A stretch of DNA of 37,748 nt, taken from the NCBI RefSeq assembly GCF_000423425.1, contig NZ_AUHY01000025.1, forward strand, positions 1 to 37,748, given 5' to 3'. Of the stretch, positions 2,404 to 30,897 are shown piece by piece. The number at the start of each line of letters is the position of its first letter. Positions within the stretch are counted from its first letter, which is position 1. The notes under the pieces were generated by a model. The model was given only the letters and a program-made list of their open reading frames with translations. It ran no database searches and had not been told where the DNA came from. The DNA comes from Meiothermus rufus DSM 22234 (lineage in GTDB: Bacteria; Deinococcota; Deinococci; Deinococcales; Thermaceae). The translations under genes and the position numbers were made by a program.

Positions 2404-3624
2404 TTAGTTCCGGCTTACCTTACGGTTCAGGAAGTCCATCAGCACATAGCGCCCAATGTTGGCCGGGGTGGTCAGATAGGCCTTGCCCTTGGTGATCTGG
2501 GTGATTTTCTTGACAAAGGCCAGCAGTTCCGGCTCACGGGCCAGCATGAAGGTGTGGATGGGGATGCCCTCCTTGCGGGCTAGGGTGGCCTCCTTGAGGG
2601 TTTCAGCCAGAATCACCGGATCGAGGCCCCAGGCGTTCTTGTAAATCTGGCCCGAAGGCAGGGTGAGCGCGGAGGGCTTGCCATCGGTAATCATGATGAT
2701 CTGTTTCATCTCCCCGCTCATCTTCTTGAGCATCTTACGGGCCAACCGGAGGCCTTCGGCGGTGTTGGTATGGTAAGGGCCTACCTGCACCATGGGCAAG
2801 CGGCCCAAGGGCACTTCCTCAGCGCTGTCGTGGAAGATGCCGAAGCGCACCTGGTCGCCGGGATACTGGGTGCGGATGAGGTGGGCCAGGCCCAAGGCTA
2901 CTCGCTTAGCCGGGGTGAAACGATCCTCACCGTATAGGATCATCGAATGGGAGCAGTCCAGCAGCACCACGGTGTTCATAGCCGCGGCATACTCGGCCAG
3001 CTCGATGACCAGGTCGGAGGCCTCGAGGTTCTCCAGCCCCTTGGTCACCACCCGCTTCAGGGTCTCGGCCAGGTTGAGGTTGGGCTGGTCGCCAAACTCG
3101 TAGGGCTTGGTCTCGCCGCTGGACTCTACCCCAGAGGCGTAGTGACGGGTAGGGTGGGCGCCGGGGGCGTTCTTGCCCAAAGAACCCAGCAAGGCCCGCA
3201 GACTTTTGAGGCCCAGAAAATCCACCGACTTCTGCGTGAGCTCGAGGCGCACCTCCTGGGCCTCCCCTTGGCTTCCTGGACCGGCGGGCTGGGTGGGGTC
3301 GGGGCCGCCTAGGCGGATAAACCCCTCCTCTTGCAGCCGCTGAATGAGCTTTTGAATCTCCTGGTATAGCCGGGTCTCCTCCTTGCGGTTGGCGAAGCGG
3401 GCCTCGCGCAGCCATTCCTCGGGAATGCGGCCCTGCTCTAAGAGGGCTTGCAGCAAGGCATCGTAGAGGTCCTCGGCGGTGGGGGTGCGGCTGGGGTCGG
3501 GCTGGTAGCGGTTGTAGGGGTCGGAAAAGCCCGAGTCCATCAGGAAGTCCTGGATCATCTCCATCAGCTCGGCTCCGCTCAGGTCGTCGAAGCCAGGCTT
3601 GTATTTGGAGTACCGCACGCGCAT
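2404..3624 (-). CDS. VWA-domain protein (CoxE/BatA-like MIDAS protein)
   Basis: A 406-residue protein whose C-terminal half is a von Willebrand A domain. The metal-ion-dependent adhesion site is visible: DCSHS (DxSxS), a threonine in the YHTNTAEGL segment, and ITDGKPS. The N-terminal half is helical, charged and unassigned. Such proteins are the usual partners of MoxR ATPases, the pair acting as a remodelling or metal-insertion chaperone. The frame is open upstream to 3705, but the ATG at 3624 is preferred because AAGGGGTGG stands just before it and the upstream extension would overlap the MoxR gene. The gap to the MoxR stop is 10 bp, so they are cotranscribed. Confidence 0.85.
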
Positions 3625-3634
3625 AGCCACCCCT

Positions 3635-5056
3635 TCAGTTCCCGCTGCCCCAGCGCTCCCGTTCACGCTCCAAAGGAGCGCTATAGCTCTCCTCGCCCCG
3701 GGCAATCTTGCGTCGGCCGGCTAAGCCCTCGAGGATGAACTCCCCAGCCGCCACTATGGCCTCTGGGGTCCCCTGGGGCTCCAGCTTGCGGGCTGCCGCC
3801 AGCAGACCCGGCACCTTCTCCATCTCTGCCAGCAGCTTGCGGGCGCTATCCTCGGGCAGGGTGAGGAGGTTGCCCTCAGCGAAGTACTGCACCACCTCGT
3901 CGGTGGGGAGGCTCCGGGCCCGCTCAGCAAAGGCCATGCCGAAGGCTTTGAGCAACAGGTCTTTGGCCACCCGCTCAGCCCCTTGGAGCTCCCCTTCGTA
4001 CTCCAGCTCGATCTTGCCGGTGATGGCCGGTAAAGCGGCGTAGAGGTCGCGGGGGCGGGCCACCGGGCGCTCGCCCAGGCGCAAGGCCCGACGCTCGGCA
4101 TTGGAAACCACCAACTCCAAAAGGCTGATGGAAAGCCGCTGCGAGACCCCCGAGGTCTTATCCACCCGCTTGTCTTCCCGGGCCACAAAGGCCACCGCCT
4201 CCGCGGCCTCGGCCACGTAGGCCGGCACGTAGATGCCCTCCTCACGGGCAATCCAGGCCTCTTGCTGGGTGATGGCCAGACCTTCCTCGAGGCTGTGCGG
4301 GTAGTGGGTGCGTATCTCTGAGCCAATGCGGTCTTTGAGGGGGGTAACGATCTTTCCGCGGGCAGTGTAGTCCTGGGGGTTGGCGGTAAAGGCAATCCAT
4401 ACATCGAGCTCGAGGCGCACCGGGTAGCCCCGAATCTGCACGTCGCCTTCCTGCAGAATGTTGAACAAGGCCACCTGCACTTTAGGGGCTAAGTCGGCCA
4501 CCTCGTTGACGGCAAAGATACCCCGGTTGGCCCGGGGCAACAGGCCATAGTGGACAGCCTCGAGGTCGGAAAGCCCGGTGCCCCGCTTAGCCGCTTTGAT
4601 GGGGTCGATGTCGCCCAGGATGTCGGCCACGGTGGTGTCGGGGGTGGCCAGTTTTTCCACGTAGCGCTCACTGCGGGGAATCCAGACGATGGGGGCATCG
4701 TCGCCGGCCTCCGCGAGCAGGCGCTTGGCCTCTGCGGAAAGGGGAAACAGCGGATTATCGCGAATCTCGGTGGGTAGGGCGGGTATTTCTTCGTCCAAAA
4801 GCTCGGTGAGCTGGCGTAGAATGCGGCTTTTGGCCTGGCCCCGCAAGCCCAGCAAAATAAAGTTGTGCCGGGCCAGGATGGCGTTGATCAAGCTGGGAAT
4901 TACCGTCTCGTCGTAGCCTTGTATGCCAGGAAAAAGCCGCTCACCTCGCCGCAGCTTAGCGATAAGGTTCTGCCGCGCTTCATCCTTGACGCTGCGACGC
5001 AGCTTCTCCAAGGGATATGTACGCCTGAGCTCACCGAGGGTCTGGGCCTTGCGCAT
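3635..5056 (-). CDS. MoxR-family / Mg-chelatase-like AAA+ ATPase
   Basis: A 473-residue AAA+ ATPase, the first gene of a four-gene minus-strand operon. The nucleotide site is atypical: the P-loop reads GLRGQAKS, with Ala where GxxGxGKS has Gly before Lys, and the Walker B region reads [11 protein letters not shown], with Asn in the usual Asp position. The pattern [18 protein letters not shown] and the arginine-rich sensor segments further on match the MoxR/ChlI class. MoxR proteins work with VWA partners, and one follows directly. The ATG at 5056 is supported by a TAGACT box ending six bases upstream, so the mRNA is probably leaderless. Confidence 0.85.
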
Positions 5057-8259: not shown

Positions 8260-11022
8260 CTACAACAGCCGCTGGGCCACGGGCCGGGGCAGCCCGGCCC
8301 GCACCGAGAGCAGCTCGTGCAGCCCTCGGCCCTCCTCGGTCTCCTCCAGCACCTCGGCCAGGGCCTGGGCCACCTGCCAGAAGGCTTCCTGCTCGAGGTA
8401 GCCCACCTCGCCCAAATAGTCGGCAATGGCCTGCTTGCCCTCGCGCATCAGGAGCAGGGTGCGGTGCAGGGCATCTATCATGGGCACGGCGGCACGCAGT
8501 CCCGCTGGGGCATCGTCCGCGGCGTTAGCAGGCAGGCCCAGGTGCTTGTCCTTGGCCCGCTCGCGGGAGAGCCGGATAAAGGTCTTCTCGCCCTTCTCCT
8601 GCGCCAGCGAGCCCAGCTCGGCCAGCTCCACCCCGGCGCTCTGGGCTAGCTTGCGGGCCTCATCGGAGGGCAGCTCGGTGCCGTAGGCCCAGATGGCCAG
8701 CAGGGCAAACTGGGTGGGCCCGTCCACCCCGCCCATGGCCTTGGTGCCCAGCACCCGCTCCAGGGCAAACTCCAGCACGATCTTGCGCACCTCGTCTAAA
8801 AACTCGCCCACCCCCACCTCGCGCCCGTCGGCCCGCTTGACCACGTCGTAGCGGCTGTAGGCCGAAAGCCCCGGCCCAATGGCCGACATGAAGAAATCGG
8901 CCCCGCGAATCCCCGCCTCCCAGAACTCTTCAAGCTGCGGGCGGATGGCCTCTTGCATCTCGCGGCGCACCTCGGCGAAAAAGCCCGTGCTCCCCCCCTC
9001 GCGCTTGGTGCAATTGAGGAAGGTGGAAGAGGCCAGCGCCGCCGAGTCCCTGGCCCGAAGCCGGGTCGGCATCTCGGTATGCAGGGGCCAGGAGGCCTCC
9101 ACCTGGAACCCCGCCCGAACGAGCGCCCCAATCAGGGTCTCCCAGGCCTCGGTGCTCTTGTGGGCAAAGACGATGGTGGCCTTGCCATGGGGCTTGAGCA
9201 CCCGGTGCATCTCCCGGAAGGCCTGGCCCATCATCTCCTCGAAGAACTGCTTGGCCCGCTGGTTGTCGCCCCCGTGGCGCACCGGGTTCTGCACCGCCTC
9301 CTCGCGCTTGGGCGTAAGGGGGGTGCGGAAGTGCTCGGGGTAGAGGTGGCCGATGGTGCGCCGGAGCCAGACATAGAAGAAATCCGAAAGGTCGGCGTAG
9401 GGCACGGCGTCGTAGTAGGGGGGGTCGGTGATGATGGCGTCGAAGAAGTTGTCTTCAAAGGGGAGGCGGGTAGCGGTGCCGCGCAGGACTGCAGTGGAGC
9501 TACTAGACACCCTACTCTCATGCTCTATCGCTCGTGTAACCCATTCTGTACTACCTACCCAACCAATCGAGCTAAGTGCGTTTGCCTCTGCATATTGCCA
9601 AACCATGGGCAATGCTTGTCTAGCAAAAACATGATCCACAAACTCAGCGATATGATGCCAAAAAACCAAAGTAGCACTTTTATCCGCTAGCCGGTCATGA
9701 ATAATAGCCAAATACGTCGCCACCCCTCGAGCCCACTCCTCATCCATCCCCACCTTCAGCATCTCGGCGTGGGCCTCGCGCACCCACTTGGCAAAGGTGA
9801 CCAGGGCCAGGGCCTGGCGGGAGTTGAAAAGCTGGCCCCAGGTCTCAATCCCGTAGAGGTTTACCCGAAACCCCAGTGTACCCTTGGGTGGTAAGGGCTC
9901 GTCTGGGACAAGGCTCATTTCACCACTGTGACCAGCTTCAAGCTCGGCAAGTCTCTTTTTAGCTTGCTCGAACACAGCTCTATCCGCTTCGTTGGCAGGC
10001 CGGTAGGCTTTGCCCTCCCCGCCCGTTGAGAGAACCACCGCCAACAAGCGCTCGCCCCAGCTTCCTTGCTTGGCCTCGTCACGAACGTTCTCCACCGGAA
10101 TGGCCGTGCTGCAGACCAAGCAGGTGGCGTTTCCCCGCTCGATGGTTCCCTTATCGGGCCACTCCTCGCCCCTGCCCACCTCCACCACCTCAAACGAAAC
10201 GGTCTTGGCCTCGGCGTCTACCTTGGGCCTCAGGGCAATGCGCTTTTTGTCCTTCTTGGCCAGCCACCACTGGCGCACCAGGGGCACCTCGGCACGGCAG
10301 GCGGGGTTGGTGCAGGTCACGGTGCGGGCCCACAGGTAGGCCACCGGGGTTTTGCCGTCGGGGTCGGGCGGGTAAAACTGGGCAAGCTCGGCCTTGGCCC
10401 GCTCCAGCACCCACTCGCCCCAGTAGCGCACCTCGGCGCTCAGGGGGTTTTGCTGGTAACTGCTGGTCCACTCCCCCATTGGGCCTACCGGCTTGGCCCC
10501 GCCAAAATCCAGCGCCTGGCGGCCCTTGCCCCTGGGGGCGTCCCTGGCCCGGATGTACTCGGGCACTGGGCGGCTATTGGGCTGGCCGTACTTCTGGGGG
10601 TACTCCAGGGTGGCCCGCTGGATGAGGTGGGCCACCGGGTTGAGGTCGAGGGCGTAGACCTCGCAACCCAGGCGCAGGGCCTCCAGCGGCATAGCCCCGC
10701 CCCCGGCGAAGGGGTCGAGCACCTTGGGCGGCTTGCCCCCGCCCGCCTCCAGGACCCGGCGGCGGGCCTCGAGGACGGCCGCGTTGTTGCCGTCCTTCAC
10801 GGCCTCCCAGGGCACAATCTGCTTCACCAGCTCGTGGTTTTCCTCGGTGTCGGGCACCAGCGTAGCGAAGACCGCAGCCCGGCTGGCGGCCAAAGGCCGC
10901 CTGGCCCACCAGATGTGCAGGGTGGAGATGTGCCCGTGGCGGATGGACTTCTCCCGGCTCGAGGCCTGGGAGATTTCCTCGAGGGGTAGGCGGTGCTCGA
11001 TAAGGCGGCGTTTCTGCTGCAT
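8260..11022 (-). CDS. DUF1156 adenine-specific DNA methylase with zinc ribbon
   Basis: A 920-residue N6-adenine methylase-like protein. The DUF1156 start is clear (EISQASSREKSIRHGHISTLHIWWARRPL, residues 15-43 in part), followed by AdoMet motif I DPFAGGGAMPLEAL at 103-116, two CxxC-type zinc-ribbon pairs (CTNPAC near residue 245, CLVC near 300) and catalytic motif IV DPPYY at 533-537. It is the likely modification enzyme of the operon, marking host DNA. The ATG at 11022 has GGGGAG just upstream. Two stretches inside the gene, about 9495-9720 and 9900-10000, are visibly less GC-rich than the rest. It lies 75 bp after darG, and that gap holds two tandem palindromes, so it may be controlled separately. 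Confidence 0.88.
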   Translation of the reverse strand: MQQKRRLIEHRLPLEEISQASSREKSIRHGHISTLHIWWARRPLAASRAAVFATLVPDTEENHELVKQIVPWEAVKDGNNAAVLEARRRVLEAGGGKPPKVLDPFAGGGAMPLEALRLGCEVYALDLNPVAHLIQRATLEYPQKYGQPNSRPVPEYIRARDAPRGKGRQALDFGGAKPVGPMGEWTSSYQQNPLSAEVRYWGEWVLERAKAELAQFYPPDPDGKTPVAYLWARTVTCTNPACRAEVPLVRQWWLAKKDKKRIALRPKVDAEAKTVSFEVVEVGRGEEWPDKGTIERGNATCLVCSTAIPVENVRDEAKQGSWGERLLAVVLSTGGEGKAYRPANEADRAVFEQAKKRLAELEAGHSGEMSLVPDEPLPPKGTLGFRVNLYGIETWGQLFNSRQALALVTFAKWVREAHAEMLKVGMDEEWARGVATYLAIIHDRLADKSATLVFWHHIAEFVDHVFARQALPMVWQYAEANALSSIGWVGSTEWVTRAIEHESRVSSSSTAVLRGTATRLPFEDNFFDAIITDPPYYDAVPYADLSDFFYVWLRRTIGHLYPEHFRTPLTPKREEAVQNPVRHGGDNQRAKQFFEEMMGQAFREMHRVLKPHGKATIVFAHKSTEAWETLIGALVRAGFQVEASWPLHTEMPTRLRARDSAALASSTFLNCTKREGGSTGFFAEVRREMQEAIRPQLEEFWEAGIRGADFFMSAIGPGLSAYSRYDVVKRADGREVGVGEFLDEVRKIVLEFALERVLGTKAMGGVDGPTQFALLAIWAYGTELPSDEARKLAQSAGVELAELGSLAQEKGEKTFIRLSRERAKDKHLGLPANAADDAPAGLRAAVPMIDALHRTLLLMREGKQAIADYLGEVGYLEQEAFWQVAQALAEVLEETEEGRGLHELLSVRAGLPRPVAQRLL

Positions 11023-11045
11023 AGTGAACTCCCCATCTCGACAAA

Positions 11046-11084
11046 AACTCTGAATTCAGAGTTAAGAACTCAGCTTTCAGAGTT
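11046..11084. promoter_or_regulatory. Tandem 18-bp palindromic operators before the methylase
   Basis: Copy one, 11046-11063, is AACTCTGAATTCAGAGTT, a perfect palindrome. Copy two, 11067-11084, is AACTCAGCTTTCAGAGTT, matching copy one at 14 of 18 bases and keeping both outer arms. They are separated by AAG, giving a 21-bp repeat, two helical turns. They lie 24-62 bp upstream of the methylase ATG, between darG and the methylase. This is the layout of a two-dimer repressor site. The binding protein is unknown. Confidence 0.7.
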
Positions 11085-11097
11085 TGGATACGGCCAG

Positions 11098-12147
11098 CTA
11101 CGACTGTGCTGAATCGGCTACAGGCTGAGGGAGCCAGCCCCTCTGGGCCAGGTGCTCTGCCGCCACCCGCAGGTGGGCTTCGGGAAAGCGCTCTTTGCGG
11201 GGGCTCCAGGCGCGAACCACCCTCAGCAGCGAGGGCCAGTCCCGGGCTTCTTCGCGGGTAAAAGCCCAGTGCACCGTAGCCAGCAACTCTAGACCATAGG
11301 GCGATTCAAAGCCCTCGATTAGCTCGGCGACACGGCCCACTGCCTCGTCGAATTCCGGGTAATCGGCCAAAAAGGCTACTGCCTCGTCCAGGGCTCCAGG
11401 AGCCAGTTGTATAGCCGAGGAGGTGTTACGGTCGCCATATCCCCGCAGGTAGTGGCCCTCGAGGCGCTGCAATACCGGGTTGAGGTTCTCCGCATAGGGG
11501 CCATACTTCTGCTTGACGAAATTTAGCTTCAGGGGTAAAGGCGATTCCTGAAGGAAGTAGGCCAGCTTTTGAGCCTCTAACCTACCCACCGGTTCACCAA
11601 AAGCACTGTAGAGTGCAAACAGCTTCAGCAATGCGGCCCTGGCTGGGGTGAGGTGGGGTTTGCTCGAGGGCTTAGCCAGGTTGGCCTGAAAAGCAGGCTG
11701 GGGTTGATAGACCCAAACCTCCACCTCCGGCAAGCCAGCAAAAGCCTCCTCAATCAGGGGCCGCACCACAGCCCAGTCCAGGCCGCCGTTGCCCACGCCC
11801 AAAGGCGGTAGGGCCAGCGAGCGCACCCCTAGCGACCTAACCTGGTGCACCAGGTCGCGCAGGCCTTCCTGGACGTACTCGAGGCGGGAAGGCTGCCGCC
11901 AATGCTTTTTGGTAGGAAAGTTGAAGATGTAGCGGGGATAAGCCAGCGGACCTCGGTCAAACACAAAAATACGACCTATCTGCACCTCGCCCTTACGGCA
12001 GGCCGCCTCGTAGGCCCGGTAGTTCTCTGGGTAGGCCCGCTTGAATTGCAAAGCCACCCCCTTGCCCATCACCCCCACGGTGTTGACCGTGTTGACCAGG
12101 GCCTCTACTGGAGCCTGCAAGAGGTCACCCTGCTTGTACTGGATCAT
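11098..12147 (-). CDS. darG: DarG antitoxin: macro-domain DNA ADP-ribosylglycohydrolase
   Basis: A 349-residue antitoxin. The N-terminal macro domain (about 1-150) has the ADP-ribose-binding loops NTVNTVGVMGKG at 19-30 and PPLGVGNGGLDW at 114-125, and Lys80 in FPTKKHW, the position of the catalytic lysine reported for Thermus DarG. It removes ADP-ribose from thymidine in DNA. The C-terminal part (about 165-340) contains KYGPYAENLNPVLQRLEGH and is the region that in DarG proteins binds and blocks DarT. The ATG at 12147 lies 13 bp after the darT stop with GAGGGG upstream. The pair looks complete and functional. Confidence 0.9.
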   Translation of the reverse strand: MIQYKQGDLLQAPVEALVNTVNTVGVMGKGVALQFKRAYPENYRAYEAACRKGEVQIGRIFVFDRGPLAYPRYIFNFPTKKHWRQPSRLEYVQEGLRDLVHQVRSLGVRSLALPPLGVGNGGLDWAVVRPLIEEAFAGLPEVEVWVYQPQPAFQANLAKPSSKPHLTPARAALLKLFALYSAFGEPVGRLEAQKLAYFLQESPLPLKLNFVKQKYGPYAENLNPVLQRLEGHYLRGYGDRNTSSAIQLAPGALDEAVAFLADYPEFDEAVGRVAELIEGFESPYGLELLATVHWAFTREEARDWPSLLRVVRAWSPRKERFPEAHLRVAAEHLAQRGWLPQPVADSAQS

Positions 12148-12160
12148 CGCCCCTCACGGC

Positions 12161-12796
12161 TCAATAATACCAACCCCGCTTAACCCAGACTTTCCGCCAA
12201 ATCTCCCTGGGAAAATCTTCAAGGATTTGTCGAACTTCTCTCGCCATACCCGAATCCAAGACCCCGATGCCCTCAACCAGTTCCCAGGGAAAATAGCGGT
12301 GAACCAGGAACTCGGCCTGCTTCTTTTCCTTGCGGAAGGGCTCTTCGGGCGTGTCGAACCAACTCCGGGCTCGGATAGCCTGCCAGTCCAGCCGAGCAAA
12401 GTCGGTTTTATGGGTGAAGAAATCCGCGTATTTTTTCTTGGCATGCCGGTCTGTGAAAACAAAAGGTAGGCCAGCCTGCTCGACCCGTTCGACGCTCGAG
12501 ACAATGTGCAGGATAGGTCTTTGACCTCCCCTATAGGGCATCTGCCCTTCCAGGGGGTTATGTAGGGCATAGAGCATGGGCGAACGGGGACAAAAGTAAA
12601 AAGGCACGTAGTCGTGCAGAACCCCTCCAGGGCCTACCGGCACCGTTCGCTGGGCTCGCTCCTCCTGAATATGTTCGTAGGCTATGCTGGTACATAGCCT
12701 CGGCAAGTGGTTTTTCGCCCAGAGGCAGCCTTCTTCCAGGATGCCTCTAAGGTTTTCTATGTGGGTGATGTGGTAGATAAGCACGGGTAGCTTCAT
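12161..12796 (-). CDS. darT: DarT toxin: DNA thymidine ADP-ribosyltransferase (DUF4433)
   Basis: A 211-residue toxin that attaches ADP-ribose from NAD+ to thymidine in single-stranded DNA, stalling replication; DarTG pairs are known phage-defence modules. Family features are visible: YHITHIENLRGILEEG at the N-terminus (NAD+-binding His9 or His12), an arginine-rich segment EERAQRTVP at about 45-53, VHDYVPFYFCPRSPMLYALH-like core at 59-79, and KKQAEFLVHR with the presumed catalytic Glu162. Nothing suggests inactivation. Its ATG overlaps the helicase stop by four bases (ATGA at 12793-12796), so toxin synthesis is coupled to helicase translation. Confidence 0.9.
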   Translation of the reverse strand: MKLPVLIYHITHIENLRGILEEGCLWAKNHLPRLCTSIAYEHIQEERAQRTVPVGPGGVLHDYVPFYFCPRSPMLYALHNPLEGQMPYRGGQRPILHIVSSVERVEQAGLPFVFTDRHAKKKYADFFTHKTDFARLDWQAIRARSWFDTPEEPFRKEKKQAEFLVHRYFPWELVEGIGVLDSGMAREVRQILEDFPREIWRKVWVKRGWYY

Positions 12797-15700
12797 TTTG
12801 CCGCAGTTTCAGCGTGCTTTTGCCATTCCTCCAAGGGCAGCACATAGCGCACCACGCTCACCTCTTCGCCAGGGGTCAGCTTGGCCGCAGGGTTTTGGAT
12901 GAGGTACAGCCGTGGCTGGGTGAGGGCCTCGGTCACGATGTAGAGCCAGTACTGATGGCCCAGGCGCCGGGCGGAAATCCACTCGTTGGGGGTCAGCACC
13001 ACCGGCCCCACCCCGGCCCGGCCCTTAACCTCGATGTAGCGCCCGCTCGAGCGGATGTCGTAGCCCAGGTTTTGCTGGCTCACGTCCAGAGCCTCGCGCC
13101 CCTGGGCCTGCTCATAGGCCAGGCTCACCCGCATGGCCGCTTCTTCCACCGCCTGGCGCAGCGCGGGGTCTTCCTCGTTGGGAAGGCCCAAAGGGCGCGG
13201 GCGCAAATAGGCCAGCGTCAGCACCCGCGCGGGTTCGGGATGGAGGGTCGCCGCCCGCTGGAGTTCTTCCTCGAGGGCTTTTAGCCGCTCCTCCAGCTCC
13301 TTGAGGCGGCGCTCTTCTTGCAGGATAGCCAGGCGCATGGCCTCGCCCTCCTTGAGCTTGTACTGGGTGAGCTTCCGCACCGACTCCTCCAGCAAAAACT
13401 CCAGGCTGCGGCGGGCATACTTACGGCGAATAGCCACCTCGTGCTGCCGCTCACGCGCTACCTCCTGGAAAAACCCATCTAAAACCTCGGCGTAAGCCCA
13501 GGCCAAAAGCTTTTCCTCGGCTGCTGCCCCCTCGGCAGGCAGGGCCTGGCCCGCTGGGGCAGGCTCGAGGTCCACCACCAGCTCCGGCGGTACGGGCCGA
13601 ACCTCCGCCTGGGCAATGGCGGCATACAGCCGGCGGGCCACGGTCTGCCCCAGCCCGTCCACCACGCTCAGCTCGAGGTAACCCAGCACCCCCTCCAAGC
13701 CCTGGTCGCTCCAGTAGACCGCCCCTTGGCGCAGCACGGGCGTGGCCTGGGCCAGGGTCTCCTCCAGCACCAGATCGAAAAGGGGGTGCCCCGGCGCGAT
13801 GAGCTCGGCTTCCTGGCGGGCTTTGGGGTCGAAGGTGGCCCTGCCGTACTCGCGGGCCAGCAGGCCAGGGCGCTTGCGGAAAAGCTCGTAGGGCAGGGTA
13901 ACCCGGTAAAGCCCATCGCTACGCCGCTCCACGCTCCCGCCCAAGCGCCCCAGGGCCCGCACGAAGAAGCGCTGGGTGTACTCCGGCTGCAAGCGGTGCT
14001 CTTCCGAGCGGGCCCGCTCCTCCCGCAGGCGCGACAGGTCTAGCTCGCGCTTGGCTAAAGCCTCCAGGGTGACCTCGCGGATGAAGGCTACCCGCTCGGG
14101 GGAGAGGCGGGCCTCGACCACCGCGCGGATTTCCGCCAGGGTCTTGCGACCGGTGAGGTGCTCGAGGATCAGGGCCTCGAGGTTGACGTCGGAGAGCAGC
14201 TCGCCCACCACGTCGTAGACCCGGTCGGAGCCCATCTCCTGGCGCATGCGCTCCAGCTTGTCCAGCACCACCTTCAGCACCTCGCCCTCGCGGGTGCCCT
14301 CGGCCACCAGGTTGTAGATGTGCACGTCGTAGCGCTGCCCGTAGCGGTGGATGCGGCCCATGCGCTGCTCGAGGCGGGTGGGGTTCCAGGGCAGGTCGTA
14401 GTTGACCATCACCGCGCAGAACTGCAGGTTGATGCCCTCGCCGGCGGCCTCGGTGGCCACCATCACCTGGGCGCTGTCGCGGAACTCCCGCTCGCGCAGG
14501 ACCCGCTCCTCCAGGGTCATCGAGCCGTCGATGGAGGTCACGGCATAGCCCCGCTTCCGCAGCACCTCCACCAGGAAGCGCAGGGTGTCCTTGTGCTCGG
14601 TGAAGATGAGGAGCTTTTCCGCACCGATGTTCTGCAACACCCCCAAAAGCTCCCGCAGCTTGCGGTCGTCCTCCAGGCGGGCCAGGGTGCGGGCTTCCTT
14701 GGAGAGGGCCTCGAGCTCGCCCAGCTCGGCCTCGAGTTCGGGCAGGTTGCGGGCCAGGGTCAGCCGCTCGGCCAGGGCATTTTCCACCTGCCAACGCTGA
14801 TCCTCGGTCAGCTCCTCCAGGTCTTCCTCGGTGTACTCGCCGTAAGGGTTCTCCTGCAGCGCGGCCACCTGCTGCCGCAGCGAATCCAGCCGCCGGTAAC
14901 GGTTCTCCAGGCTCTGGGCAATGGCGTAGGTGCTGCTGGCCAGGCGTCGCTGGAGCACCGTCATGGCCAGCCCCACGTTGCGCTGCCGCTCGTCCCAGGC
15001 CCGCTTGAAGTGCCGGGCCACATACTCGCTAACCTTTACGTACAAAGCCTGCTCGCTGGGCGAAAGCCTGAAGGATAGCGTGTGGACATAGCGCGGGGGA
15101 AAGAGGGGCCGGCCCTCGAAGTCGGTCATGTCCTCTTTGAGGCGGCGCAGCAGGATGGGGTTCTCGTTTTTCTGGGCCGCCTCTTGCAGCAAAGCCGTGT
15201 TGGCGAAGAGGTCGGGTTCCAACAGGTCGAGCAGCAGCCGGAACTTTTCGTCGTCGCCCTGGTGGGGGGTGGCCGTGAGGAACAAGAGGTGGGTGCTGCT
15301 TTGGGCCAGCACCTCGCCCAGGCGGTAGCGCTGCGACTTCTTGACCTCGGCCCCATAGCGGGTGGCCGATAGCTTGTGGGCCTCGTCCACAATCACCAGG
15401 TCCCACTGCACCCGCTCCAGGAGGCTCAGGTTCTCCTCCCGTTTGGCGAAGTCGAGGCTGGCGATGAGCTGGGGGCGCTTCTCCCAGGGGTTGTCCTGGT
15501 AAAGGGCGGTAGCGGCGTCGCGGTTCATGACCTCGAAGCTCTCGCCAAACTTCTCCTTCAGCTCCCGCCGCCACTGGTCGGTGAGGTTGGCCGGCGTGAC
15601 GATGAGGATGCGCGAGAGCACCCCCCGGTACTTGAGCTCCTTGAGGAAGAGCCCCGCCATGATGGTCTTCCCGGCCCCAGGGTCGTCGGCCAGCAAAAAG

Positions 15701-16053
15701 CGCACCCGGGGCTTCTTCAACAGCACCCCATAGACGGCCTCGAGCTGGTGCGGCAGGGGGTCGATGCGGCTGGCCGAGACCGCGAAAAAGGGGTCGAAGA
15801 GGTAGCCCAGCTGGATACGCCGGGCCTCGAGGCCCAGGGCAAACACCTCGCCATCCCCGGCGAAGGGCCGCTCTTCAGGCAGCAGGGTGGCTACCTCGGC
15901 CTCGGCCAGAAGGCGGTGATGGGTCTGGCGGCTCAAGAGCCCCTCCGCCACCACCGCGTAGCGCCCCCCGGCGGGCGTAACCCGCAGGATGCGCACCGGC
16001 TCGGGCCAGAAGGGGGCCTCTACCACCCGGTCTACCAGGGCTTCCCACCCCAC
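12793..16053 (-). CDS. SNF2-type DEAH helicase with C-terminal DUF3883 domain
   Basis: A 1086-residue superfamily-2 helicase or translocase. Motif I is DDPGAGKTI at 123-131, motif II DEAH at 223-226, motif III TATPHQGD, and the RecA2 domain ends with motif VI RLEQRMGRIHRYGQ. After a long helical middle part the C-terminus has a DUF3883-like domain with LGYDIRSSGRYIEVKGRAG, whose D...ExK pattern recalls PD-(D/E)XK nucleases. It probably moves along DNA to find or process invading, unmodified DNA together with the DUF499 ATPase. The GTG start at 16053 has AGGAGGAG within the end of the upstream gene, three bases away. Confidence 0.88.
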   Translation of the reverse strand: MGWEALVDRVVEAPFWPEPVRILRVTPAGGRYAVVAEGLLSRQTHHRLLAEAEVATLLPEERPFAGDGEVFALGLEARRIQLGYLFDPFFAVSASRIDPLPHQLEAVYGVLLKKPRVRFLLADDPGAGKTIMAGLFLKELKYRGVLSRILIVTPANLTDQWRRELKEKFGESFEVMNRDAATALYQDNPWEKRPQLIASLDFAKREENLSLLERVQWDLVIVDEAHKLSATRYGAEVKKSQRYRLGEVLAQSSTHLLFLTATPHQGDDEKFRLLLDLLEPDLFANTALLQEAAQKNENPILLRRLKEDMTDFEGRPLFPPRYVHTLSFRLSPSEQALYVKVSEYVARHFKRAWDERQRNVGLAMTVLQRRLASSTYAIAQSLENRYRRLDSLRQQVAALQENPYGEYTEEDLEELTEDQRWQVENALAERLTLARNLPELEAELGELEALSKEARTLARLEDDRKLRELLGVLQNIGAEKLLIFTEHKDTLRFLVEVLRKRGYAVTSIDGSMTLEERVLREREFRDSAQVMVATEAAGEGINLQFCAVMVNYDLPWNPTRLEQRMGRIHRYGQRYDVHIYNLVAEGTREGEVLKVVLDKLERMRQEMGSDRVYDVVGELLSDVNLEALILEHLTGRKTLAEIRAVVEARLSPERVAFIREVTLEALAKRELDLSRLREERARSEEHRLQPEYTQRFFVRALGRLGGSVERRSDGLYRVTLPYELFRKRPGLLAREYGRATFDPKARQEAELIAPGHPLFDLVLEETLAQATPVLRQGAVYWSDQGLEGVLGYLELSVVDGLGQTVARRLYAAIAQAEVRPVPPELVVDLEPAPAGQALPAEGAAAEEKLLAWAYAEVLDGFFQEVARERQHEVAIRRKYARRSLEFLLEESVRKLTQYKLKEGEAMRLAILQEERRLKELEERLKALEEELQRAATLHPEPARVLTLAYLRPRPLGLPNEEDPALRQAVEEAAMRVSLAYEQAQGREALDVSQQNLGYDIRSSGRYIEVKGRAGVGPVVLTPNEWISARRLGHQYWLYIVTEALTQPRLYLIQNPAAKLTPGEEVSVVRYVLPLEEWQKHAETAAK

Positions 16054-16056
16054 CGG

Positions 16057-19000
16057 CTACTCCTCCTGCCAGTCCGCCTCGATATTGTGCTGGTCGAGAA
16101 TCTCCCGGGCCGAGGTACGCAGCACGGCCTCATCCAGCCCCGCCGGGTTCACCGCCTCTACCTCGACCCGCAGGCGCACCGTGCCCTTGGCATCGCGCAG
16201 GGCCTTGACCAGGTCCACCAGGGCCGGGATGCGGGCCAGCTCGAGCTGGGGGATGGTCACGGCGACCCGGGTCTTTAGGGGTTTTTTGCCGTTTACCGGC
16301 TGGGAGTCAGGCTCGGGCTTGACCTCCCTCCCCTCCTCTGGCAGCGGTGTCTTCCCTACCTCAACCGGCGCATCAGGACGAGGTAGGCTACCTAGACGGG
16401 CCAGCACATAAGCTTCGGTGAAAAAAAGCTCCTCGGCCCGGGGAACCTTCCCGGCGTGCCAGACCTGGCTAAAGCCCTCGCCTGAGCGCACCCCTAGCTC
16501 AAACAGGCGGATGCGGATGCCCTGCACAACAGCCTCCTTCAAGGCTTCCTCCCGCTCGAGGAAGGGCAGGTGGGGCAGGCGCAAGAAGTACTCCCGCAGA
16601 TCCTTCAAAGAAAGATAGGGTTCGTCCCGGGGCCACAGACCCCAGGGGCCCTGCACCAGATAGGCCGGGTCGAGGGCGGCTATCAGCCGGTCCTCCGCCC
16701 GCAGCACCTCCATGACCGCGGCCTGCAGGCTGGGCTGGGTTTTGGCATAGGCGGTGAGGTCGTAGTAGTGGTAGGCTCCTTTGGCATCTTTGGGCTCGAG
16801 CATCCCCGTGTAGCTGGCCTTGACCAGCACCGGCAAAGCTTCCCGCGCCTCCTTCAAAAGGCGCTCCAAATCCTGCCGCTGCTCCTCGGACAAAACCAGC
16901 CCCCGGTCGGCTTTGATCTCCTCCAAGGCCAGCAGCTTGCAGGCAGCCTCCTGGGCCCGCAGGTAGGCTGCCCGGGAAAGGGCCAAAAAGAGGGTGGTGT
17001 TCTTGTAGATACGGGGCCCAGAGGCATGGTTGTCCTGCACGATGTGGTAGGCCCGCTCGAGGGCCTCCTTGTGGTCGTTGGGGGCTTCCGGCCCCAAAAG
17101 CACCAGCTTGAGGGCGGGGTTATCGGGCACCTCGCGGTGGTTGCTGGGCCAGATGTAGACCCGGAACACCCCCGGCCCCGCGGCTTTTTCCACCTGTTGC
17201 CGGAGCAGTTCCTCCACCGCCTCTGGCTTGACCTGGGCCATCCGGTCGGCCAGCACCGCATTGAGGTTGGGTTGAGCCTTGAAGGCCCAGCCCCCGTTGA
17301 TGTACAGGTAGTACAGCCGCTTTTTGAGGTTGTCCAGCGCGTCACCTATGAGCAGGGGAGAAATGCCTTCGGGGTAGACCAACGCCAGGTTGAGCTGGGG
17401 GCGGGAGGCCCCGCGTTCCGCACCGCCAGAGTGGGAGTAAAAGAATACCGCTGTGGCCAGCGACTGCGCCAAGCGGAAGCGCGCGTAATCTCCGCCCAGC
17501 TCGCGATCCAGCAGGTAGGCCTTGCCCTCTGGGGGGATAATGTCCGAGGCCAGCACCGGCTCCCAGTGAGCCTCGCCCAACACGCTGGTGACCGTGGCCC
17601 TCAGGTCGGCGGACTCCAAGGCGGCGTCGCCCAGCCCGATCAGGGGGCGGGCCGAGGCCGAAAGATACCCCGCTTCCACCAGCCGGGCCAGAAGGCGCAG
17701 CACGCCGCGGGTCTTCTGGAAGGTCTGTAGGGTGCCCCAGCGCTCGTAGAGCACGCGCACCAGCTCGGGGTGAAAGGGAAAGGCCGCCAGCATCTTGCGC
17801 CCGTACTCGCCGCTGCGCACCTCGCTGGGCAGCTCGTTCTTCAGCTCCTCGTAGGCCTTCATGTAGGCGGCCACCACCTGCTTGGCCCCCTCGCCGTCGA
17901 TGCGCTCGAACAGGCGGCGCCGCAGCACCTCGTAGATTTCCTCCCCCTGCACCGGCATGCGCACGGCCTGCACCCGGCCGAAGATCTTCTCTAGACGGGC
18001 AAAGACCTCTGGAGCCTCCTTGTGGTCGTAGTACTCGAGGTGCGACTCAGGGAAGGTGGTGACCAAAGCGACGTTACGCAGGCTGCCCACCACCTCGGTG
18101 AGTTCCTGCAGGAAGGCGAAGGTCTGGGCCTGCAGGCTGGTATTGCCGATGGAAACCGAGGCCGCCTTGACCTGGTAGACCAAAAGCTCGTCAATCAGGA
18201 TGAGAACCGGGCTGTACGCTCGCAGGAGTTCATCCAGGGCCTGCTTGCCGGGCGGGGTCATGGCCTCGTCTGCAGCACGCAGCCTTTCGTAACCGGCCTT
18301 ATCGCCTAGCTGGTAGGCCAGCTCACCCCACAGGGTTTGGATGCGCAGGCCATCCACCATGCGTCCTTGGGCGGAAAGATCGGTGCCCACCAGCACCGCT
18401 ACCCGCGCCCTTGGCATGCTGCCGACCCCAGCCTCTTGCAGCAGGGCCTTGATCTCCGGCAGGTCGGTGAGTTCGGCATAGGCCTTGACCAGATGGTACA
18501 GGGCAATCAAGGCATGGGTCTTACCCCCGCCGAAGGGGGTGCGCAGTTGGACCACCGCCTCCCCACCCATGCCGGCCAGCCGCCGCAGCGTGTCCTTGAG
18601 GATGGAGGCGAGTTCCTTGGTAAGGTAGGTCTTCTTGAAAAACGCCTCGGCGTAGCGGTACTCGGCTGGCGCTCTGCCAAACACCACGTCGTCGAGCTTG
18701 GCCGCGAAGGTGTTCTCGTCGAACTCGCCCCGGCGAATGGCCTCATCCGGCTCGGCCAGCTGCCACCAGGGGGGTAGGCTGCCCTTGGGCGCACTGGGTA
18801 AGGTGCGCTCCATAAGCTGGCGCACCTCTTTGGCCACCTCTTCCGCACCGATCTGGCGCAAAAAGCGCACGATGTTGTCCAGGGCACGGCTTACATCCTC
18901 TTCGGGGAGGTGTTTCTGATGGGCCCAGGCGTTGCGCACCTCGCTGATCTCGTCAGCCCAGGTGACCGCGCGGTTAAAGTTGCGGCCAAACGCCTCGCGG

Positions 19001-19245
19001 AACACTTCTCGCTGGCCTAGCAGAACGTCCTTGACGTGGTTGATATCGAAAACATCCTCTGCCGTCTTGCCGCGCTTCAGGTCCTCCAGGGCCTGGGCTC
19101 GCCGGGCCTCGCTTAGCGCAGCCAGGTAGGCTTCTACCCAAGCTTGGCCCTGGCCATACACCCGCTGCAACTCGGCCACAAAATAAGCACGCACCGCCTC
19201 GGCATACAGCCGCAGGGCGGTGCTTAGGTAGCTTTCGGCCTTCAT
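16057..19245 (-). CDS. DUF499 AAA+ ATPase with N-terminal Swt1-like HEPN domain
   Basis: A 1062-residue protein, first gene of the defence operon. Residues about 1-145 form an all-helical HEPN-like domain with the RNase signature R-x4-H at 104-109 (RNAWAH). The DUF499 ATPase core follows, with Walker A FGGGKTH at 238-244 and Walker B LILIDEL at 348-354. The C-terminal part (about 985-1062) is a separate small domain after a Pro/Glu-rich linker. Proteins of this family accompany DUF1156 methylases and helicases in defence islands. The ATG at 19245 lies six bases after TAAGAT, so the operon seems to have its own leaderless promoter although bioY ends only 36 bp upstream. Confidence 0.88.
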   Translation of the reverse strand: MKAESYLSTALRLYAEAVRAYFVAELQRVYGQGQAWVEAYLAALSEARRAQALEDLKRGKTAEDVFDINHVKDVLLGQREVFREAFGRNFNRAVTWADEISEVRNAWAHQKHLPEEDVSRALDNIVRFLRQIGAEEVAKEVRQLMERTLPSAPKGSLPPWWQLAEPDEAIRRGEFDENTFAAKLDDVVFGRAPAEYRYAEAFFKKTYLTKELASILKDTLRRLAGMGGEAVVQLRTPFGGGKTHALIALYHLVKAYAELTDLPEIKALLQEAGVGSMPRARVAVLVGTDLSAQGRMVDGLRIQTLWGELAYQLGDKAGYERLRAADEAMTPPGKQALDELLRAYSPVLILIDELLVYQVKAASVSIGNTSLQAQTFAFLQELTEVVGSLRNVALVTTFPESHLEYYDHKEAPEVFARLEKIFGRVQAVRMPVQGEEIYEVLRRRLFERIDGEGAKQVVAAYMKAYEELKNELPSEVRSGEYGRKMLAAFPFHPELVRVLYERWGTLQTFQKTRGVLRLLARLVEAGYLSASARPLIGLGDAALESADLRATVTSVLGEAHWEPVLASDIIPPEGKAYLLDRELGGDYARFRLAQSLATAVFFYSHSGGAERGASRPQLNLALVYPEGISPLLIGDALDNLKKRLYYLYINGGWAFKAQPNLNAVLADRMAQVKPEAVEELLRQQVEKAAGPGVFRVYIWPSNHREVPDNPALKLVLLGPEAPNDHKEALERAYHIVQDNHASGPRIYKNTTLFLALSRAAYLRAQEAACKLLALEEIKADRGLVLSEEQRQDLERLLKEAREALPVLVKASYTGMLEPKDAKGAYHYYDLTAYAKTQPSLQAAVMEVLRAEDRLIAALDPAYLVQGPWGLWPRDEPYLSLKDLREYFLRLPHLPFLEREEALKEAVVQGIRIRLFELGVRSGEGFSQVWHAGKVPRAEELFFTEAYVLARLGSLPRPDAPVEVGKTPLPEEGREVKPEPDSQPVNGKKPLKTRVAVTIPQLELARIPALVDLVKALRDAKGTVRLRVEVEAVNPAGLDEAVLRTSAREILDQHNIEADWQEE

Positions 19246-20876: not shown

Positions 20877-22640
20877 GTGCAGCGGTGGATGGCTTTGCTC
20901 ATAGGCCTGGCCCTGGCGCTGGCCCAGGGGGGCCTGGAGGTACGCTCGGGGCACCGGGCCCCGGTGGGGGCGGTGGCCCTGGGCCCCCAGGGCATGCTGG
21001 CCTTAGGGGCCGATGCCTACATCCAGCTCTACCAGGCCGATGGCCGCTGGCTGCGCACCCTGAGCGGCCATAGCGATACCGTCCGTAGCCTGGACTTCGC
21101 CCCCGACGGCACCCTGCTGAGCGCCTCGGCCGACGCCACCCTGCGGCTGTGGAACCCCCAGAGGGGGGCCAGCCAAAGGGTCTTGCGGGGCCCGCGCGAC
21201 CAGGTCTGGGCGGCCCGCTTCAGCCCGGATGGCCAGCGCCTGCTGAGCGGCAGCGCCGATGGGGAGGTGTGGCTGTGGAGCCGCAGCGAAGCGGTGCAGA
21301 AACTGAACCTGGGGCGTGGCTGGGTCTATGGGGTGGCCTTCTCCCCCGATGGCCGCCTGGCGGCTGTGGGCGGGCTCGAGGGGGCGCTCTTGTGGAACCC
21401 CCGCGAGGGCAGCCGCCTTCCCCTGCTGGCACCGCTTTCCCTAAGGGCCTTGGCCTGGGGCCCGGACGGGCGGCTGGCCACCGGCGACCGCGAGGGACAG
21501 ATTCAGCTCTGGGACGCCCAGGGCCGCTTCCTGCAACAGTTCACGGCCCATAGCCTGGCGGTGGGGGCGCTGGTCTGGTCAGCGGGGGGCCGGCTCATCA
21601 GCGGGGGGCAGGATGGCCGGATAGTCTTTTGGCAAGGGGATAGGCCCCTGCAAAGCCTTCAGACGGCCTCGGTACTGAGCCTGGCCAGCGCCAAAGACCG
21701 GCTTCTGAGCGGGCACGACGATGGGCGAGCCCGGCTGTGGAGCAGCTCGGGCCAGCTTCTAAGGACCCTCGAGCCCCCCGCCGCCTCGGTGGCGGCCCTG
21801 GCCCACAGCCCCGACGGCAGCCTGCTGGCCAGCGGGGGCTGGGAGGGGGAGGTCTGGCTGTGGAACGCCCAGGGGCGGGTGGTGGCCCGGCTAGCGGGGC
21901 CCGGGCTGGAGGTCACCGCCCTAGCCTTTAGCCCGGACGGGCAGTACCTGGCGGTGGGCAGCCGCGAGGGGCGCACCTTCATTTACCAGGTGCCAAGCCA
22001 AAGGCGGGTGCAGACCCTGGAGGCCCACGGCAACGGGGTAGGGGCCCTGGCCTTCGCCCCCAACGGACGGGCTTTGGCCAGCGGCGGGCGCGACCGGCTG
22101 CTGCGGGTCTGGGACTGGCAAAGCGGGCGCAAGGTGCTCGAGTTCCGCGCCCACGAGGCCCACCTCACCGGCCTGGCCTGGAACCCCGATGGCCGCACCC
22201 TGGTGAGCAGCAGCCTGGACGAAACCCTGGCCTGGTGGGCCCTGCGCCCCGAAGGGGTACGGCTGGTGCGCCGGGCGGTGGCCCACGCCCGAGGGGTCTC
22301 GAGCCTGGCCCAAAGCCCCGACGGGCGCCTGCTGGCCAGCGCCAGCTTCGACCAGACCCTAAAGCTCTGGGAGGCCCAAAGCGGAACCCTGCTGCGAACC
22401 CTGTCCGGGCACACCGAGGCGGTTTTGGCCCTGGCCTTCTCCCCCGATGGCCGGCGGCTGGCTAGCGTGGGCTGGGACAAAACCCTGCGGCTGTGGAATG
22501 TGCAGGGAGAGCTTCTACAAACCGTTCCCGGCTTCGTTCGCCCGCTGTACGCGGTGGCCTGGCCGGCGGGGAAAGGGGTTTTGGTGGTGGGTGGGGGCAC
22601 CCTGCGCCAGGGAGGAACCTTGACCATCCTCCAACAGTAG
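20877..22640 (+). CDS. Exported WD40-repeat protein, two seven-bladed propellers
   Basis: A 587-residue protein with a cleavable-looking signal peptide (MQRWMALLIGLALALAQG) and then WD40 repeats to the end. Fourteen repeats can be counted, most with a GH near the start, SPDG in the middle and a closing LW or VW dipeptide (for example SGHSDTVRSLDFAPDG and the repeat ending LRLWN). Fourteen blades fit two seven-bladed propellers. The mature protein would act outside the cytoplasm as a scaffold; no catalytic domain is visible. The last repeat is degenerate. Expressed from its own leaderless promoter divergent from birA. Confidence 0.88.
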   Translation: MQRWMALLIGLALALAQGGLEVRSGHRAPVGAVALGPQGMLALGADAYIQLYQADGRWLRTLSGHSDTVRSLDFAPDGTLLSASADATLRLWNPQRGASQRVLRGPRDQVWAARFSPDGQRLLSGSADGEVWLWSRSEAVQKLNLGRGWVYGVAFSPDGRLAAVGGLEGALLWNPREGSRLPLLAPLSLRALAWGPDGRLATGDREGQIQLWDAQGRFLQQFTAHSLAVGALVWSAGGRLISGGQDGRIVFWQGDRPLQSLQTASVLSLASAKDRLLSGHDDGRARLWSSSGQLLRTLEPPAASVAALAHSPDGSLLASGGWEGEVWLWNAQGRVVARLAGPGLEVTALAFSPDGQYLAVGSREGRTFIYQVPSQRRVQTLEAHGNGVGALAFAPNGRALASGGRDRLLRVWDWQSGRKVLEFRAHEAHLTGLAWNPDGRTLVSSSLDETLAWWALRPEGVRLVRRAVAHARGVSSLAQSPDGRLLASASFDQTLKLWEAQSGTLLRTLSGHTEAVLALAFSPDGRRLASVGWDKTLRLWNVQGELLQTVPGFVRPLYAVAWPAGKGVLVVGGGTLRQGGTLTILQQ

Positions 22641-28506: not shown

Positions 28507-29298
28507 ATGTTGAGGGTAGCGCTTTTGCTTCTTATCTTGGCGACAGTTGCTGTCGCCTGCACCCGGGTCTCGGAGTTTGAAAAATCTAATCCCCGGCCAT
28601 GGGAGGATTCACAAAAGGTGCTGTGGGAAAGAACAGCAGAACAGGTATTGAAGGGTCTGACTGACCCCGACCATCTGCGTCTCCTTGCCGAAGACCTTAG
28701 ACGAGAACCATACCGCACATACTTTTTGGACGCCAAGGGCCATTTTAGGCAAGACAGGATTCCAAACCTCAAGCTGCACCGAGCAAAAACCCTCCTCGAC
28801 TGGAGCAAGGAGGCGGCCTTGGAAACCTGGCGCAGGGTTGGCCTTGACCAACCAAAGCCCTGGGAGGTTCTGGCAGCCCAGCGTGAGCTTGCGGACTGGT
28901 ATGTAGGGGGCCTCTGGGTGCCCGGCATCGGTTACATAGGGGAGGTTTGGGCCCCCGTCTATGGGCTACCCTATGATCCAAGTGGGAATGCCGGGGGATT
29001 CACCGCGTGGTTCCACGACTTTAACCCCCCGCTGTCGTCCCTGCCCTATGAGGGGGTCGAGGAGCTTTATTGGCTCCGAATAAGCCTCGAACACACATCC
29101 ATTCTCACACCGCAGAAAGACCAAACGGGACAGGTGGTGGGCTTCTTGGATGTCAGGACAGGCCGGAGGTATCGAATGGCCGAAGGGGAAGTATCGGTCT
29201 CTTCCCAGCAAGATACAACCTATTTCGGGGCAGACCTGGGCGGAAATCCGCTGATTTTCCAGGGAAAGCGCATTCATCTTGTACTCGAGGAGGGCTAA
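28507..29298 (+). CDS. Lipoprotein of unknown function
   Basis: A 263-residue protein with a signal peptide and lipobox (ATVAVAC, Cys about residue 18), so it is lipid-anchored. The mature part is rich in Trp, Tyr and Gly (GLWVPGIGYIGEVWAPVYG, GVEELYWLRISLEH) and mostly soluble-looking. The ATG has a long purine-rich site GAGGAGAGGAGGG. Base composition is lower in GC than the operons on either side, suggesting a different history. No family was recognised. The next gene starts three bases after its stop. Confidence 0.65.
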   Translation: MLRVALLLLILATVAVACTRVSEFEKSNPRPWEDSQKVLWERTAEQVLKGLTDPDHLRLLAEDLRREPYRTYFLDAKGHFRQDRIPNLKLHRAKTLLDWSKEAALETWRRVGLDQPKPWEVLAAQRELADWYVGGLWVPGIGYIGEVWAPVYGLPYDPSGNAGGFTAWFHDFNPPLSSLPYEGVEELYWLRISLEHTSILTPQKDQTGQVVGFLDVRTGRRYRMAEGEVSVSSQQDTTYFGADLGGNPLIFQGKRIHLVLEEG

Positions 29299-29301
29299 TG
29301 T

Positions 29302-29751
29302 ATGGGTTGGCTGAACAATCTCCGAATGGCTGGGCTGGCTATTCTGCTCTCCATCGGGCTTTCCCAGGGAAGCTGTGGCGTGCAAATACCAGGTGGCAGT
29401 GGTGCCTGCCCCATAACCTCGATGGACCCCAGCTTCATCTCTAGTGCCTCGGTAGGTGTGGTGGGGCCGGGTGTCATCCGAGGGTGTGAGGTTTCCTCCA
29501 GAGTGGAGTTCAGAGCCACTGTGCGCGGTGTGTCTGGGCCAAGCCCGGCCCCTGTGTATGCTCGCTTTGGCATTGTTGGCGCTAACTTTAATGGCGCACC
29601 TTGCACGGTTTCTTCAACGCAACCCTGGCTGCCCAACTCGAGCTTCTCTGCCAGCACGCTCCCTTGCGCAACACCCAGCAGCGGCACCTACTTTGGCGAC
29701 CTCATCGTACTAACTCCCGTACTGACCTTCAATGTGCGAAGCACTTTTTGA
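29302..29751 (+). CDS. Small exported protein, unknown function
   Basis: A 149-residue protein with an N-terminal signal sequence (NLRMAGLAILLSIGLSQG) followed by Cys in QGSCG; the lipobox is poor, so it may be secreted or lipidated. The mature part is Ser/Gly/Thr/Val-rich with several cysteines, like a beta-sandwich. It follows the lipoprotein gene by three bases and shares its ribosome site region, so they form a two-gene unit. No family was recognised; its composition resembles the lipoprotein at 322-912, but no direct homology was seen. Confidence 0.55.
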   Translation: MGWLNNLRMAGLAILLSIGLSQGSCGVQIPGGSGACPITSMDPSFISSASVGVVGPGVIRGCEVSSRVEFRATVRGVSGPSPAPVYARFGIVGANFNGAPCTVSSTQPWLPNSSFSASTLPCATPSSGTYFGDLIVLTPVLTFNVRSTF

Positions 29752-29790: not shown

Positions 29791-29799
29791 CAGGAGGGT

Positions 29800-30897
29800 A
29801 TGGGCATCCTCTCCGACTACCTTGCAGCCGCCTTAAAACAAGCCAGCTACAAGCCCAGCGAGGGCGGTTTCCTCGAGGCCACCGTACCTGGGCTGACCGG
29901 CCTGATGGTGCGGGGGCGCACCTTCGAGGAGTGCCGCGAGCGGCTGCGCGACGAGCTCGAGCTCTACCTGGCCAAAACCCTGCTGGCCCACCAGCCCCTG
30001 CCCGAGCTGCCGGGGGCCCCAAACAGCCTGCAGGAGCTGGCCCTGGAGATTCACCCCAGCGAAAGCCTGACCGAGCAGGCCATCCTGCAGACCGTGCGCA
30101 CCATCCTGGAGGAGGTGCGCTCCCTGCGCCGGGGTGGCCCGGCCCCCGCCCCCAGCCCCCGCCCCCCCGAGGCCAAGCGGCCCTCGTTGCGGCTCTCGGA
30201 GTATGTGCAGGAACTGGGCCTGGGCCTCCAGCTAAGCCGCAACGGCCTGAGCGAGGCCGAGGAAAAGACCCTCGAGCGCATTAGCGGCTTCCTGGGCGAG
30301 CGCTTCGAGAAGCTACAGGGCCTCTACGAGAAACTCAAGCAGGCTGCCGGCAAGGGCAACGGCGAGTTCCAGTACTCCTTGGCCTCCTTAGCCCAACAGG
30401 ACATCGGGCTTTCCACCCAGCTTTGCACCTTGCTCAAGGAAGGCGGGCTTTTGAAAAGCTATACCTACAGCTCCAAGCAGCGGCGCATCTACGCTCGGCT
30501 GGTGGACGAGGGCAGGGTGCGCAGCTTCATCACCGGGGGCTGGCTCGAGCGCTACGCCCGCCAGGTGGTGCAGCTCGCCCTCCGGCGGCGCAACATCCCC
30601 CACGACCTACTGCTGAACCCGGTGCTACTCTACCCCAACGGTGACCGCTTCGAGCTGGACCTGTTGCTGCGTACCCCCAGCCTGATGCTATTGGTGGAGT
30701 GCAAAACCGGCGGCTACGAGGAGAACCTCGAGCGCCACCAGCGCATCGCTACCGACCTGCGCATCCCCCCCAAGCAGGTGGTCTACCTGCTTTTGGGGGT
30801 ACCGGAGAGCACCCTGGACGAGCTAGGCCGGCAGTGGGGCTTCACCTTTGTCAACGAGAAAACCCTGGGCGAGTATCTGGAAAAGCTGCTGGGCTGA
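29800..30897 (+). CDS. HicB-like domain fused to a PD-(D/E)XK nuclease (Card1/Can2-like)
   Basis: A 365-residue fusion. Residues about 18-62 look like the HicB antitoxin fold ([35 protein letters not shown]). A Pro/Ala-rich linker (113-128) and a helical, winged-helix-like middle (about 130-240) follow. The C-terminal domain, 246-365, matches the nuclease end of DUF1887/Card1-type proteins: GGWLE at 246-250, FELD at 284-287 and VECKTG at 299-304, giving Glu250, Asp287, Glu300 and Lys302 as a full catalytic set. There is no CARF domain and no HicA partner. It could be a defence nuclease gated by the HicB-like part; function is inferred. Confidence 0.7.

Follow-up and report, generated by a model that had tools for sequence, protein, structure and literature searches.

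A predicted VC1899-like winged-helix nuclease with a HicB-like domain in place of CARF in Meiothermus and other Thermales

Introduction

The Card1 and Can2 nucleases are effectors that are driven by the second messengers of type III CRISPR systems, and the toxin HicA is an RNase of the dsRBD fold that is neutralised by HicB. Three domains make up VC1899, namely a Rossmann (CARF) domain, a winged helix (1xmx A161-249) and a restriction-endonuclease domain (PMC1462988); VC1899, Can2 and Card1 are grouped as DUF1887, with the order CARF, winged helix (wHTH) and PD-(D/E)XK nuclease. Can1 of Thermus thermophilus (TTHB155) has a related nuclease domain with the catalytic residues E541, D543, E560 and K562, next to two CARF domains and a second, inactive nuclease-like domain (PMC6981274), while Cdn1 (8z4i, 9u49) is a CARF nuclease activated by cA3/cA4. 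Among the HicB-like proteins, TTHA0281 (2dsy, UPF0150/HicB-like) is a stand-alone protein of 87 residues that carries no nuclease.

Here, we have analysed a gene of Meiothermus rufus DSM 22234, located on the forward strand of contig NZ_AUHY01000025.1 at positions 29800-30897 of a stretch of 37,748 nucleotides, to which we refer as the window. An initial annotation had described the product as a HicB-like domain fused to a Card1/Can2-type nuclease, with either a new sensor or a built-in antitoxin. Both components, the nuclease chassis as well as the HicB-like domain, are already known; a paper describing their fusion was not found, and none mentioned HicB together with DUF1887, in the literature library searched, which covers few of the subscription journals.

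The open reading frame and its domains

The open reading frame starts with an ATG at 29800, has a stop codon that ends at 30897 and encodes 365 amino acids; the gene is complete, with M1 and G2 conserved at 90% or more in the 36 homologues that we have aligned, obtained from a protein search across 111 Deinococcota genomes. A strong AGGAGGG is present at 29792-29799, one base ahead of the conserved ATG, at a spacing shorter than that of the usual ribosome-binding site; a search for a sigma-70-like promoter close to the gene found none, and the Rfam scan of the window returned no match.

Where the initial annotation had seen two parts, we distinguish three folded domains: the HicB-like and the nuclease parts stand, but the winged helix between them, at about residues 128-240, had been missed. 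The N-terminal UPF0150/HicB-like domain (residues 1-78, 29800-30033) is supported by Pfam, the PDB profile and structure, and is followed by a stretch of variable helices and a low-confidence linker (residues 79-127, 30034-30180), distinguished by its pLDDT and its dN/dS, where the pLDDT of the AlphaFold2 model drops below 50 at residues 107-109 and 111-124. The winged-helix domain (residues 128-240, 30181-30519; pLDDT 88-98) matches the middle domain of VC1899/Can2 in structure, while the PD-(D/E)XK endonuclease domain of the Card1/Can2 type (residues 241-365, 30520-30894) is supported by Pfam, PADLOC, the PDB profile and structure. The mean pLDDT of the model is 88.7 and the overall pTM is only 0.65, which leaves the placement of the domains relative to each other uncertain. 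Since the winged helix and the nuclease are aligned to VC1899 and the N-terminus is HicB-like, the protein is, by its sequence and its model, a VC1899-like wHTH-nuclease, with the last two of the three VC1899 domains and with a HicB-like domain in the place of the first, CARF.

The winged helix and the nuclease domain

The comparison of the C-terminal part with known families points to the CARF-associated nucleases in several ways. The Pfam family Card1_endonuc matches residues 241-314 with 19.1 bits (E=0.001, single sequence), below the curated cut-off, and is likewise found below the cut-off in 35 of the 36 homologues; the PADLOC CARF_PDDEXK models match residues 126-309 (E=4e-10), with matches that start only at residue 126; and the family profile, searched against the PDB, retrieves Can2 (7e-7), Cdn1 (2.6e-6), Card1 (5.5e-6) and VC1899 (8e-6). 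The PADLOC model PDLC01131 PD_DExK, described as “same family as the one fused to CARF, 1XMX”, matches 10 of the 36 homologues weakly and names no HicB-like domain, and NCBIfam gave no match for the protein.

The structural comparison is in line with these searches. Foldseek ranks VC1899 first (4e-11), followed by Cdn1 and Can2, and the alignments by VIA-align, for which unrelated folds give a baseline of Z about 7, reach Z 19.0 for Can2 (216 residues, model residues 116-365, rmsd 4.9 Å), 18.1 for Cdn1 (3.8 Å), 17.3 for VC1899 (4.5 Å), 12.8 for Card1 and 12.3 for Can1. The alignments to Can2, Cdn1 and VC1899 run from about residue 104 or 130 to residue 365, at Z 15-19 (15-18 for the core of Cdn1), and the likeness to VC1899, Can2 and Card1 as a group (Z 12.8-19) extends across the C-terminal 235 residues or so.

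The protein shares with VC1899, Can2 and Card1 the motifs GGW(L/F)E and ExD...ExK. GGWLE is located at residues 246-250 (30535-30549), where G246, W248 and E250 are invariant among the 36 homologues; FELD is located at residues 284-287 (30649-30660), where the invariant E285 and D287 follow the pattern of E541/D543 of Can1; and VECKTG, residues 299-304, contains the catalytic ExK, E300-C-K302 (30697-30705), in which E300 and K302 are invariant and patterned as E560/K562 of Can1. We have counted the invariance of E285, D287, E300 and K302 and their Can1-like pattern in favour of a nuclease, and the conserved catalytic residues suggest that the protein would be active and metal-dependent. The initial annotation, which had taken the three motifs for a PD-(D/E)XK set and the C-terminus for the Card1/Can2 type, is thus borne out on both points, for the latter by PADLOC, the family profile and the structure next to the Pfam match. 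As in the DUF1887 effectors, a winged helix precedes the PD-(D/E)XK domain and the catalytic ExD...ExK is present; the N-terminal CARF domain and the association with Cas10 that go with these effectors are absent here, and the lack of a CARF domain also separates the protein from the CARF-driven Cdn1.

The N-terminal domain and other N-termini on the same core

The assignment of the N-terminus to HicB and not to CARF, as first proposed, is confirmed. Pfam UPF0150 (HicB-like) matches residues 6-68 with 43.8 bits (E=2.4e-11), above the curated cut-off of 27.3, and is found in 32 of the 36 homologues, and none of the 36 has a CARF family among its Pfam matches. The family profile retrieves TTHA0281 from the PDB (E=1.3e-13), and model residues 1-78 are superposed on it with Z 12.2, at 1.4 Å and 28% identity, so that the domain both scores above the cut-off of the UPF0150/HicB-like family and has its fold; the likeness is confined to these 78 residues, TTHA0281 being unlike the Meiothermus fusion in its lack of a nuclease. 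The only UPF0150 domain of the host genome is the one in the nuclease protein, and HicA (PF07927) was detected nowhere in that genome, which extends to the whole genome the earlier statement that no HicA gene lies nearby; the adjacent hicA toxin gene of a HicAB system is therefore missing.

The same wHTH-nuclease core is also found without the HicB-like domain: four Meiothermus genomes (G031, G038, G043, G037) encode homologues of 316-317 amino acids (loci L051:7712-8662, L052:7386-8336, L053:7556-8506, L054:7949-8896) that start with a short, unrelated N-terminus and, in those aligned, retain intact catalytic residues. In the PADLOC CARF_PDDEXK scan, one protein of a further genome (G095) matches the model nearly end to end (positions 4-363), which indicates that a CARF-headed member is also present in the phylum. 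Three or more kinds of N-terminus are thus found on this core.

These variants bear on the proposal that the gene is a self-contained toxin-antitoxin unit, in which the fused HicB-like domain silences a toxic nuclease as long as it remains attached and in place. HicB-like domains do serve as the antitoxin part of HicAB, of which fused proteins are known (PMC10865869). The built-in antitoxin is nevertheless disfavoured because forms without the HicB-like domain persist with their catalytic residues in place; moreover, the host has no HicA, HicB is known to neutralise HicA and not PD-(D/E)XK enzymes, and the gene, present in every sampled Thermus genome and with no relative detected among phages, plasmids and viral contigs, is unlike mobile toxin-antitoxin loci. 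We therefore regard this part of the initial annotation as weakly supported and the explanation as unlikely.

Distribution, divergence and selection

Homologues are present in all 27 sampled genomes of the genus group g4, as well as in the genus groups g5, g3 (Calidithermus) and g2 and in some Thermales of the family f4; most other Deinococcota lack the gene. We have taken g4 as Thermus on the grounds that relatives from Meiothermus and Calidithermus could be named directly and that Thermus composti, a named control genome, matches the Card1-type nuclease. In the genus of the window itself (g1, Meiothermus), the HicB-headed form is found in 7 of 18 genomes, a patchy occurrence that resembles that of an accessory gene. 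A scan of genome contigs with the window protein, sensitive to close relatives only, returned Thermaceae; no relatives were found in phages and plasmids at E<=0.01 or in viral contigs at 1e-3, and the matches in PHROGs were weak only. The gene family is chromosomal, and its presence in all sampled Thermus genomes suggests a standing role. In two of the Thermus genomes (G060, L046:8280-9077, and G064, C143), the gene falls into two reading frames, owing either to a broken copy or to an assembly error.

Median dN/dS, taken over 464 pairs in which dS is partly saturated and thus to be read as rough, is 0.34 for the HicB-like domain, 0.36 for the winged helix, 0.36 for the nuclease and 0.65 for the linker; purifying selection is similar across all three folded parts. 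The open reading frame is not a chance one, because it has homologues throughout the Thermaceae and a median dN/dS of about 0.35 in these three domains. In the maximum-likelihood tree, the Meiothermus/Calidithermus group and a group of three f4 sequences are well supported, the Thermus grouping less so. Between Meiothermus/Calidithermus and Thermus, the nuclease gene has diverged faster than hisD, with 34% against 74% identity.

Gene neighbourhood

The surroundings of the gene differ from one group to another and indicate no pathway: murJ in Thermus, argH-GNAT and carA in Meiothermus, and different neighbours again in other Thermales (the names murJ, hisD and LytR-like gene have been assigned from the sequences). 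In Meiothermus and Calidithermus, the gene is situated between argH-GNAT and carA; the gap between the GNAT and the nuclease genes is 41-61 bp in the relatives checked and 1449 bp in the window, where it is occupied by two open reading frames without a Pfam match (28507-29298 and 29302-29751, forward strand), both of which have a signal-peptide-like start. In Thermus, the gene is located directly upstream of murJ, with an overlap of 8-11 bp that is conserved in the loci checked. A few genes upstream, the Thermus loci and several of those from Meiothermus/Calidithermus have hisD, which suggests an old common location with rearrangement in between.

The fixed presence in Thermus and the conserved overlap with murJ could be expected of a housekeeping nuclease of the Thermales for DNA processing or repair, with a role like that of EndoMS and other core repair enzymes of the PD-(D/E)XK fold; a similarity of this nuclease fold to EndoMS has been noted for Can2 (PMC7969007). 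The HicB-like domain would then do no more than hold a dimer together. Against this, the gene is missing from 11 of 18 Meiothermus genomes and from most other Deinococcota, and its divergence outpaces that of hisD; we hold such a role to be somewhat unlikely.

Other features of the window were noted along the way. On the reverse strand at 8260-19245, PADLOC and Pfam identify a defence island of the Hma type, composed of HmaB (8260-11022), HmaA (12793-16053) and HmaC (16057-19245), the last with an N-terminal HEPN_Swt1 domain; nested within this operon, between HmaB and HmaA, is a toxin-antitoxin pair, made up of DarG, an antitoxin with a macro domain (11098-12147), and a 211-residue open reading frame in the position of DarT (12161-12796). 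A link between this island and the nuclease gene was considered and rejected, because the homologous loci retain the order argH-GNAT-gene-carA with no such island among the adjacent genes. A 583-residue protein of WD40 repeats is encoded at 20889-22640 (forward strand), and an AAA_5 ATPase (3635-5056) adjoins a VWA-domain protein (2404-3624) on the reverse strand at 2404-5056, as a MoxR/VWA-like pair.

Relation to type III CRISPR

The closest relatives of the core are effectors activated by cA4, and the host genome encodes a Cmr2-type Cas10; the gene might, on these grounds, specify an ancillary type III CRISPR effector whose HicB-like domain binds a Cas10-made nucleotide in the place of CARF. 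The Cas10 locus is, however, located on another contig (C55), no CRISPR-like direct repeats were found in the window, in agreement with the initial annotation, which had seen no CRISPR locus nearby, and no CARF domain was detected in the protein. In a set of 46 Thermaceae genomes that are 90% complete or more, the gene and Cas10 occur together in 26, the gene alone in 10 and Cas10 alone in 9, while 1 genome lacks both (Fisher p=0.41; Cas10 was detected with the model TIGR02577, which the most divergent Cas10 proteins may escape), so that near-complete genomes keep the gene with no detectable Cas10 and others with Cas10 lack it. Dependence on CRISPR is disfavoured because the gene and Cas10 show no co-occurrence: the gene is decoupled from type III CRISPR, and we consider an effector role of this kind very improbable.

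Discussion

We favour, with a probability of roughly 0.55, the view that the protein is a VC1899/Can2-like nuclease whose HicB-like domain has assumed the structural and probably also the regulatory place of CARF. The C-terminal half, made up of winged helix and PD-(D/E)XK domain, would bind nucleic acid and cut it in a metal-dependent manner. The HicB-like domain, which would stand where the CARF dimers of Can2 bind cA4, most likely dimerises the protein and, to judge by the same position, most likely carries the regulatory input through the binding of a partner protein, an RNA or a small ligand. The protein would probably be a constitutively present chromosomal nuclease of the Thermales, independent of type III CRISPR, and it may serve in innate defence or in the processing of incoming or damaged DNA. 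The gene is not named in the main text of the HB27 Tn-seq paper (PMC13140390), where it was looked for without the HB27 locus tag.

The “new sensor” of the initial annotation is upheld in so far as a conserved HicB-like domain occupies the CARF position; that this domain senses anything may be supposed from its position. A stronger proposal, which we put forward only tentatively, is that it is a true activating sensor that has replaced CARF and responds to a new class of ligand or partner, with the chassis acting in a single-gene checkpoint of innate immunity or DNA uptake that is independent of CRISPR and fixed in Thermus.

A Card1/Can2-type nuclease with a different N-terminal module, found throughout Thermus, would mark the wHTH-nuclease half as a portable chassis, open to inputs other than the second messengers of CRISPR, and would give HicB-like domains a role beyond the antitoxins of HicAB; the thermostable protein would be tractable for testing both. 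For the annotation of the family, the labels “HicB family” or “DUF1887”, used alone, would misname the HicB-headed nucleases.
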